A stretch of DNA of 64,000 nt from NCBI GenBank assembly GCA_016223085.1, contig JACRPS010000032.1, positions 1-64,000 on the forward strand, given 5' to 3'. The stretch comes from Chloroflexota bacterium (lineage in GTDB: Bacteria > Chloroflexota > Anaerolineae > Aggregatilineales > Phototrophicaceae). Shown in pieces: positions 44,630 through 46,867 of the stretch; the first letter of the stretch is position 1; each line of letters starts with the position of its first letter. Below the pieces are notes generated by a model. That model worked only from the letters and a program-made list of their open reading frames with translations, did not search any database and was not told the DNA's origin. Position numbers and translations under genes: made by a program.

Positions 44630-46867
44630 ATGGGATCCCTCAACCCCGATCTACTCTCAAAAGACCTGGACGCCGTGATGAACGACGCGGTGGCGCTCAA
44701 AGACCAGTACCGCAAGCCGGTCATCATGCCGGAGATGATGCTGCTGGCGCTGCTGCGCCGCCCGGATACCGCCGCCGCCCGGCTGCTGAACGCCTTCGCT
44801 ACCACGCGCGGCGTTGACCTGAAAAAGCTCGACCGGCAGGTACACCTGGCGGTGGAAAGCCGGGGCGACCAGAACGGCAACCTCGATTTTGTGGCGAAGG
44901 GCAACCGTTCCGTCCCGCTGTCCCGGCAGGCTATCATCCTGATTGACGACGCCCTCAGCCTCGCCAATTCGCTGGAAGAAATGCGCGTGGATACCGACCA
45001 CATTCTGTCGGTCATGGCCGAAAGCGCGATGAGCACCAGCGGCCTGCTGCGCGGGCAGGGCATCACACCCAAAGCGATTCAGGACATTCTGTCGGAAAAC
45101 AGCCAGATTCGGCGCGTCAGCGGCGGCACGACCCAGGATTACGTCGCGGCGGCGAAGGCGGGACAACTGCGCGCCGTGTACTTCCGCGAGAACCTGCTGC
45201 GCGACATCATCAATATCCTGTCGCAGGCCGTCAACCGCCACGTCATTCTACTGGGGCCGGACGGCGTCGGCAAACGCACGCTGGCGTACAGCCTCGGCCT
45301 GCTGATGTCCGAAGGCAAGGGGCCGAAGGGCTTAAGCGCGCTGGTGCAGATTGACGAAACCGCGCTGCTGGACAACGACCAGAAAGCGGTGCGCGCCGGT
45401 TTGAGCAAAGCCGCCGGCGGCATCCTGTTTGTGCCGCACCTGCACCGCTTCTTCGGCGGGCCGATCAGGGCCGAGTTTACGAAGGCCACGCCGCTGCTGC
45501 AAAAAGCCTTCCTGGCCGACGACCCGGTGATTATCGGCACGACCACCGAGCAGGAGTACAACCAGCGCCTAGCCAGCGTCAGCGCGATTGCCGAAAACGC
45601 GCAGATCATCCGCGTGCCGGAACCCTCGGTGGATGAAACGATTGAAATCCTGAAAATCGTCAAGCCGCACTTGGAAGCGGATTACAAGCTGGAGATCAAA
45701 GAGGACGCTCTGGCGCTGGCGGCGCGGCTCGCCAAACGCTACCTGACCACCATGCCCCTGCCCCGCAGCGCCGAACAGTTGGTACACCGCACGGCGGCGA
45801 TGGTGACGATGAGCCAGCAGAGCCACTTGGCATTTAAGCCGGAACTGGCCGACGCCACACTGGATGCGGAGGACGTGACGCTGACCGCCAGCCAGATGAC
45901 CGGCATCCCGGTGAACAAGCTGGGCGAGGACGAACGTCTGCGCTATGCCAGCATGGTCGAACACCTCAAGGAGCGCATCGTCGGCCAGGACAACGCCGTG
46001 CTGGCGGTCAGCCGCGCCATCAAAACCGCGCGCGTTGGCCTGAAAGACCCGAAGCGCCCCATCGGCGCGTTCCTGTTCCTGGGACCGACGGGCGTCGGCA
46101 AGACCGAACTGGCGAAGGCGCTGGCGGAGTTTATGTTCGGCAGCGAGGACGCGATTCTGCCGCTGGACATGAGCGAATTCAAGGACGAATCCAGCCTGAA
46201 CCGCCTGATCGGCTCGCCGTCCGGTTACGTGGACAGCGAAGCGGGCGGCCAGCTCACGGAGCGCGTGCGCCAGCAGCCGTACATCATCGTGCTGTTTGAC
46301 GAGGTGGAAAAAGCGCACCCGCGTATCCTGGACATCCTGCTGCAAATGATCGAAGAAGGCCGCCTGACCGACGGGCGCGGCAATACCACCAACTTCAGCG
46401 AGTCGGTGATTATCCTGACCAGCAACCTGGGGTCGCAGGTGTTGGCCGTGCCGGTCATCACCGACGAAATCCGCGAGGAAGCGATGGACGAGGTGCGTGA
46501 ATTCTTCCGCCCGGAATTTCTCAACCGGCTGGACGAAGTGATTATGTTTAACGCGCTGTCGGACGACGACCTGAGCAGCATCCTTAAGCTGCTGTTGAAG
46601 AAAGAAACCAAAATGGCGAGCGAACGCGGCCTGTCGCTGGAATTCACCGATGCCGCCAACCAGTGGATGCTGGCGCAGAACGACGAGCCGCAATACGGCG
46701 CGCGCCCGCTGAAACGCATTATCCGGCGCTCGGTGCGCGAACCGCTGGCGGACTTCCTGCTGAAGGTCAACCCGGCGCCGGGCACAGTCGTGCGGGTGGA
46801 CGCCAACGGCGACGGTCTGACGTTTATAGCGATGGTGGACGGCAAGGAAGTCACGGTCGGGCAATAA
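44630..46867 (+). CDS. Clp-family AAA+ unfoldase with a degenerate first ATPase module
   Basis: A 745-aa ClpC/ClpB-type protein. The N-domain (residues 5-150) has two Clp_N repeats. Module D1 (about 180-380) has lost key residues: Walker A GPDGVGKRT has Arg in place of the conserved Thr/Ser, and Walker B ILFVPH has PH for DE. The pore-loop YRGEFE and the ERRF arginine-finger stretch are missing. Module D2 is intact: GPTGVGKTEL at 485-494, VLFDEVEKAHP, pore loop GYV, and RPEFLNRLDEV. No long ClpB middle domain is present. It probably hydrolyses ATP only in D2. Partner protease unknown; an unknown gene follows at 47058. Confidence 0.9.
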   Translation: MGSLNPDLLSKDLDAVMNDAVALKDQYRKPVIMPEMMLLALLRRPDTAAARLLNAFATTRGVDLKKLDRQVHLAVESRGDQNGNLDFVAKGNRSVPLSRQAIILIDDALSLANSLEEMRVDTDHILSVMAESAMSTSGLLRGQGITPKAIQDILSENSQIRRVSGGTTQDYVAAAKAGQLRAVYFRENLLRDIINILSQAVNRHVILLGPDGVGKRTLAYSLGLLMSEGKGPKGLSALVQIDETALLDNDQKAVRAGLSKAAGGILFVPHLHRFFGGPIRAEFTKATPLLQKAFLADDPVIIGTTTEQEYNQRLASVSAIAENAQIIRVPEPSVDETIEILKIVKPHLEADYKLEIKEDALALAARLAKRYLTTMPLPRSAEQLVHRTAAMVTMSQQSHLAFKPELADATLDAEDVTLTASQMTGIPVNKLGEDERLRYASMVEHLKERIVGQDNAVLAVSRAIKTARVGLKDPKRPIGAFLFLGPTGVGKTELAKALAEFMFGSEDAILPLDMSEFKDESSLNRLIGSPSGYVDSEAGGQLTERVRQQPYIIVLFDEVEKAHPRILDILLQMIEEGRLTDGRGNTTNFSESVIILTSNLGSQVLAVPVITDEIREEAMDEVREFFRPEFLNRLDEVIMFNALSDDDLSSILKLLLKKETKMASERGLSLEFTDAANQWMLAQNDEPQYGARPLKRIIRRSVREPLADFLLKVNPAPGTVVRVDANGDGLTFIAMVDGKEVTVGQ

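Follow-up and report, generated by a model that had tools for sequence, protein, structure and literature searches.

A Clp/Hsp100-type protein family of Anaerolineae with an apparently dead first AAA ring and an intact second ring

The window (the whole stretch of DNA that was analysed, 64,000 nucleotides from a Chloroflexota bacterium) encodes a Clp/Hsp100-type protein which, judged by its sequence and those of its orthologues, represents a distinct Clp/Hsp100 class, found so far in one class of Chloroflexota (Table 1). The first AAA ring of the protein (D1) has lost its catalytic set, these losses are conserved throughout the family, D1 is under purifying selection and the second ring (D2) is intact. 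On this basis we consider it probable that the protein is a stand-alone machine with two rings and one motor, in which threading would be driven by D2 and a non-hydrolysing D1 ring would sit on top, in the manner of Pex1/Pex6.

Table 1. Features of the clp locus and their positions in the window
Feature	Position	Strand	Basis or remark
Clp/Hsp100-type protein, 745 aa, N-D1-D2	44630..46867	+	reading frame, Pfam domains, orthologues
N domain, residues 1-160	44630..45109	+	two Clp_N stretches; AlphaFold2 secondary structure
D1 AAA module and lid, residues 166-400	45125..45829	+	AAA fold kept, catalytic set lost
D1 Walker A GPDGVGKRT, residues 209-217	45254-45280	+	position 216 Arg instead of Thr/Ser
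D1 pore loop 1 deletion site (9 residues), residues 243-257	45356..45400	+	family alignment
GILFVPHLHRFFGG in place of D1 Walker B, residues 264-277	45419..45460	+	G264, R273, F274 invariant in 115/115
D1 Walker B position ILFVPHLH, residues 265-272	45422-45445	+	alignment against ordinary Clps
EN at the D1 arginine-finger position (RR in ordinary Clps), residues 322-323	45593..45598	+	family alignment
D2 large AAA subdomain	45965..46549	+	catalytic motifs intact
D2 pore loop 1, GYVD, residues 532-535	46223..46234	+	GY[VI][GD] in 113/115
D2 small subdomain, sensor-2 GAR motif	46550..46864	+	Pfam ClpB_D2-small
Neighbouring gene, 198 aa, two alpha-beta-beta-beta-alpha repeats	47058..47654	+	confident structure model, pLDDT 94

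Results

Domain layout and structure model

Pfam searches with the 745-residue protein returned Clp_N (weakly), AAA lid 9 (after D1), AAA_2 (D2) and ClpB_D2-small, all above the Pfam cut-offs, which together are the domains expected of a member of the Clp/Hsp100 superfamily. The generic AAA model found its best stretch in D2 of this protein, but in D1 of the genome's four ordinary Clps. In the AlphaFold2 secondary structure, the N domain is built from a pair of four-helix repeats separated by a beta hairpin (residues 82-98). The sequence-only reading had mentioned this two-repeat N domain in connection with a possible dedicated adaptor role; such an N domain is common among Clps, and of four ordinary Clps scanned, three likewise have two Clp_N stretches. 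The AlphaFold2 model, built on 77 sequences, had a mean pLDDT of 84.9 and a pTM of 0.55, so that confidence is fair for the individual domains but not for the way they are arranged or for the ring geometry. D1 and D2 together matched the structures of ClpC1, ClpA, ClpB and Hsp104, with ClpC1 as the best match (Z 33.3 over 537 residues, rmsd 5.2).

Losses and a new signature in the D1 ring

The family alignment comprised 115 orthologues, 55 of them from relatives and 60 from among 80 further genomes of the class, and 111 of the 115 aligned frames were longer than 700 residues. Seven ordinary Clps from the source genome and related genomes, read in the same alignment columns, served for comparison; at the D1 Walker A and Walker B columns these have GVGKTA and ILF(I/L)DE. 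The replacement of the Walker A Thr/Ser by Arg, which had been read from GPDGVGKRT, was confirmed: residue 216 is Arg in 113 of the 115 orthologues (Gln and Lys in one each) and Thr in all seven ordinary Clps. The Walker A lysine, residue 215, is retained in 89 orthologues and is Arg in 26, a substitution that requires at least seven changes on a tree of the 111 long sequences. Likewise, the reading of PH (in ILFVPH) in place of the Walker B Asp-Glu pair stood up against the DE of 7/7 ordinary Clps. Across the 115 orthologues, the Asp position is occupied by Pro (103), Ala (8), Ser (2), Arg (1) or Asp (1), and the Glu position by His (52), Asn (34), Asp (13) or other residues and never by Glu; the pair is intact in none, and 101 have an acidic residue at neither position.

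The D1 pore-loop segment, which had appeared to be missing, has indeed suffered a nine-residue deletion in every orthologue: the region of residues 243-257 is 15 residues long in 115/115 family members versus 24 in 7/7 ordinary Clps, and the xRG(E/Q/D)FE pore-loop motif occurs in none of the 115. The arginine-finger segment had been described as missing too, which is correct for the RR pair (EN in the source protein) but not for the segment itself, which is present. Residue 322 is never Arg, residue 323 is Arg in 13/115, and an RR pair within residues 316-330 was found in none of the 115 orthologues; an arginine a few residues past the old finger, R328, is present in 77. As a set, K-T-D-E-R-R occurs in 0/115 orthologues versus 7/7 ordinary Clps. 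The former D1 Walker B site carries a new motif, G-x-L-F-x-P-x-x-x-R-F-F. Residues L207, G212, G214, G264, R273 and F274 are invariant in the 115 orthologues, residue 243 is Glu in 106 of them, and the sensor-1-like threonines of D1 are kept. R216, R273 and F274 were also invariant in the 77 rows of a second alignment, which covers largely the same organisms.

The search for orthologues with the same losses thus found them in all 115 aligned sequences, a recurrence which argues that the loss in D1 is more than chance, and no orthologue of the clade with an intact D1 set was present among the 115 examined. Misalignment of D1 is excluded, since the Walker A block is free of gaps and the same columns are changed in the 115 orthologues, and so is a sequencing or assembly error, the losses being common to other genomes.

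Conservation of the D2 ring

The claim that D2 is fully conserved was upheld for every motif examined: GPTGVGKT, FDE, the GYV pore loop, TSN, RPEFLNR and GARPLKR are intact in the source protein and conserved in the family. The two sequences without a match to the D2 pore loop are contig-truncated (447 and 571 aa). In the D2 large subdomain 81 of 195 positions are at least 95% conserved, versus 18 of 167 in the D1 large subdomain. An LGF-like (IGL/LGF) ClpP-binding loop is absent from D2 in 111 of the 113 sequences long enough to cover this region, the source protein included, and the two matches look spurious, one lying within DAGL and the other in a sequence that has an unusual ~100-residue insert. 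In one family member, L149 (2411-4954), an insert of ~100 residues lies between D2 sensor 1 and RPEF and looks like an assembly or frame oddity. Between the D1 lid and D2, family members have a span of 17-47 residues, compared with 143-144 for two ClpBs and 25-29 or 78 for the five other ordinary Clps, and a coiled-coil M domain of ClpB length is not found in the family. Overall, the picture of a first ring that looks catalytically dead beside an intact second ring is borne out by the 115 orthologues. The two competent AAA modules that mark a two-ring class I protein are, by sequence, not both present: the D1 set is absent in 115/115 and D2 is intact.

Selection and descent

Purifying selection on D1 is equal to that on D2: the median dN/dS values were 0.071 for the N domain, 0.073 for D1 and 0.073 for D2 in 36 close pairs, which share sequences and are not independent. 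The placement among the Clps that the sequence-only reading had called for was carried out with 20 family members and nine ordinary Clps, and the family formed a single clade apart from these nine, with support of 100/99 on D2, 100/100 on D1 and 100/100 on D1+D2. The nearest among the Clps compared is a type with an intact D1 that lacks the M domain and bears the LGF loop (83/83 on D2, where the placement is weak, and 92/84 on D1+D2), which may be the nearest relative. Proteins of this M-less, LGF-bearing type with intact D1 are encoded by L063 (2184-4688), L066 and L067, all from related genomes. On the D1 tree, ~2.8 changes per column separate the family from the ordinary Clps across the midpoint. 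It is likely that a ClpP-partner Clp without an M domain was duplicated and that the ClpP loop and the D1 catalytic set were then lost, and the losses likely preceded the divergence of the members found.

Distribution of the family

An orthologue, either full or contig-truncated, is present in 55 of 61 genomes (the source and 60 relatives) at 55-100% identity; the six genomes without one are five of a single family (f2) and one that is 86% complete. With the N-terminal 445 residues as the query, the family was found in 97 of 298 genomes of the class, one fragment (G181) counted. In this draw family members scored at least 168 bits (extra fragments apart) and the remaining matches at most 111 bits; the latter were assigned to ordinary Clps by score, and the motifs were read in the seven paralogues fetched. 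A draw from the phylum yielded the family in 6 of 400 genomes at E <= 1e-35, all of them the source's own or from the same class. In all, ~135 genomes have the family, two of the genome draws overlapping in 17, and all belong to one class, taken to be Anaerolineae from record titles. Among the best 80 of 195 relatives in a contig scan, these titles for the most part read Anaerolineae or Chloroflexi/Chloroflexota and in some cases Aggregatilineales or Phototrophicales, and the class given here for the window is based on them; given that these are the best 80 of 195, rare members may exist in other phyla. Two records, L168 and L189, are labelled Bacteroidetes and Pleurocapsa minor and look like mislabelled Anaerolineae bins. 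Matches on plasmids all stayed below 60% identity; those listed, 10 in number, have 26-29% identity, and six of them are annotated as ClpB. Viral contigs gave no match.

The neighbourhood and the gene at 47058

The gene at 47058 was found in 32 of the 61 genomes of the source's own order and in 7 of the 298 class genomes, all of the source's own family; the genomes searched that have it all belong to a single order. In 30 of the 32 it lies within ~3 kb downstream of clp on the same strand, and in two it is on another contig. Most members of the clp family are without a recognisable copy, so its product is not a general partner, and a universal partner is excluded by the occurrence in 7/298; it may be a lineage-specific partner candidate. 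Pfam and PDB profile searches with this protein gave nothing convincing. Its structure model had no convincing match in the PDB: by Foldseek it reached a best E of 2.8e-4 with TM-scores near 0.2, and VIA returned a best Z of 6.5 with an rmsd of 43, followed by rows of RaiA/HPF ribosome-hibernation factors at Z ~5-6. Assignments as dsRBD-like, MHC-like, TldD-like or HPF-like were rejected as weak arrangements only.

Upstream of clp, at 30964-41763, lie genes whose translations we take to be PBP2, MreD, MreC, MreB, TilS, a response regulator, a GH3 glycosidase and a PAS histidine kinase; in relatives, TilS, GH3 and kinase clusters are again found close to clp. Of the 115 loci, many of which have short flanks, 21 have a phosphomannomutase near clp (all in the source's own order), 19 have a PAS-kinase cluster (11 in that order) and 17 a GH3 glycosidase (16 in that order). 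Outside these recurrent neighbours the surroundings of clp vary, and across the class the clp loci of the family showed no gene linkage that points to a pathway. A role in anti-phage defence was rejected: eight of nine PADLOC matches fall in the generic AAA region of D2 (best 128 bits), and the gene at 47058 had none. Between clp and the gene at 47058 (46947-47007) there are two copies of the GAATTC-centred CCCGAATTCAGGG (2 matches versus 0.06 expected), the 14-base form of which, CCCCGAATTCAGGG, occurs seven times in the genome. Intergenic repeats resembling ACTAACGACTAA lie at 44549-44560, 47818-47850 and 60760-60806 (6 matches versus 0.09 expected).

Discussion

The family resembles ClpB and Hsp104 in its N-D1-D2 order and in having no ClpP loop, and the ClpB model, TIGR03346, was the best-scoring NCBIfam model, but it lacks an M domain of ClpB length, the D1 catalytic set and pore loop 1. 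The score of the source protein against TIGR03346 was 512.4 bits, below the cut-off of 1232.1 and compared with 1386.6 for an 892-residue frame of the same genome, and the ClpA model TIGR02639 gave 398 bits against a cut-off of 993; the family is a Clp class left unnamed by the NCBIfam models used. With ClpA it shares a short or absent M domain, and ClpC1 is its best PDB match, but it differs from ClpA and ClpC by having no LGF-type loop (111/113) and by the loss of the D1 catalytic set. Among Hsp100-type motors, human CLPB (Skd3) has a single AAA ring. The AAA domain of this protein (7ttr_A) matched D2 with Z 26.1 over 292 residues, but it has ankyrin repeats at its N terminus, according to an abstract, whereas the Anaerolineae family has retained a D1.

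Passages of PMC10518020 describe the D1 of Pex1/Pex6 as catalytically dead yet ATP-bound above an active D2, and the D1 of Pex6 as binding ATP despite a non-archetypal Walker A. The family is similar to these proteins in what appears to be a dead D1 with degenerate motifs over an active D2 motor, but they are eukaryotic heterohexamers of another AAA family, of which the Clp family is not a member. ClpI of Actinomycetota is, like the present family, a class of Clp recognised through sequence analysis within a single bacterial phylum, but passages of PMC10149685 place its differences in the NTD, the M domain and the LGF loop, and the main text of that paper does not contain the terms degenerate, inactive or Chloroflex-. 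The plant SMXL proteins are also atypical Clp relatives, but, in passages of PMC9133912, they have an M domain and a split D2, and both D1 and D2 contain Walker motifs. In the top-ranked open-licence literature we found no bacterial Clp class reported to have a dead D1 that is conserved, ClpI being the closest. Degenerate AAA rings in themselves are familiar from Pex1/Pex6, and a bacterial Clp class with a dead D1 would apparently be a new variation. The sequence-only reading had also stated that ClpB/ClpC proteins normally need both rings. This is partly right: one abstract and one cited title agree that both rings matter in ordinary Clps, whereas in parts of PMC6593972 and PMC9663308 the main motor of ClpB and ClpA is D2 (AAA2), and D1 is an auxiliary ring that contributes greatly to substrate recognition.

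On the reading that we favour, the protein would form a hexamer with one working ring. D2, which keeps Walker A, Walker B, the sensors, the Arg finger and an aromatic pore loop, would be the ATP-driven threading ring, and D1, in which the AAA fold is retained, would serve as a fixed structural or regulatory collar; having lost the Asp-Glu pair, the Mg-coordinating Thr, the RR finger and pore loop 1, it should neither hydrolyse nor pull. The N domain would recruit substrate or adaptors, and our guess is that R273 and F274 pack at the subunit interface. Since there is no ClpP-docking loop and no M domain of ClpB length, the protein should act without ClpP and without coupling to DnaK, presumably unfolding or disaggregating proteins on its own. 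Nucleotide may still be bound by D1, as the Walker A Lys (89/115) and the sensor-1-like threonines are kept, and Asp at the old Walker B Glu position (13/115) and R328 (77/115) are counterpoints to a dead D1.

A variant of this explanation, to which we give somewhat less than even weight, is that D1, instead of being empty, carries a permanently bound ATP or ADP that glues the subunits together structurally, as in the D1 of Pex1/Pex6. It is consistent with the Lys of GxxGxGK kept in 89/115 and with the parts of PMC10518020 on the ATP-bound, dead D1 of Pex1/Pex6 and the non-archetypal Walker A of Pex6, but this Lys is Arg in 26/115, with the seven or more changes on the tree mentioned above, and an Arg at the Mg-ligand position should disturb the binding of Mg-ATP. 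It is conceivable, though doubtful, that D1 has been re-engineered, R216 and the invariant G-x-L-F-x-P-x-x-x-R-F-F making it a metal-free locked ring, or a sensor of a ligand other than Mg-ATP, that would set the register of D2; if true, this would be a new way to build an Hsp100 machine, in one class of Chloroflexota so far.

The protein is unlikely to be a modulating subunit that co-assembles with an ordinary Clp of the same cell. The source genome does have four other two-ring Clps with D1 intact, and the D1+D2 tree groups the family with the M-less, LGF-bearing type (92/84), but D2, pore loop included, is fully conserved, as expected of a self-sufficient motor, and the family D1 is far from the ordinary one (the ~2.8 changes per column noted above). 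We think it quite improbable that D1 still hydrolyses nucleotide with alternative catalytic residues. The invariance of G264, R273 and F274 in 115/115 needs a reason, some orthologues (13/115) have Asp at the old Glu position and R328 (77/115) could be a shifted finger, but 101/115 are without an acidic residue at either Walker B position and the RR finger is found in none; the old Glu position is His in only 52/115, so no single residue replaces Glu. That D1 is a decaying, functionless remnant, as the loss of catalytic motifs in one domain might suggest, is highly implausible, being contradicted by a dN/dS of ~0.07 equal to that of D2, by the new invariant residues and by the 111/115 frames longer than 700 residues.

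The division of labour between the rings of Hsp100 proteins has so far been studied with point mutants. In this family, evolution would appear to have removed catalysis and grip from D1 in many lineages of one class while D1 was kept under strong selection, so that the role of D1 apart from ATP hydrolysis becomes directly testable, and the family would offer a natural single-motor Hsp100 for structural work.
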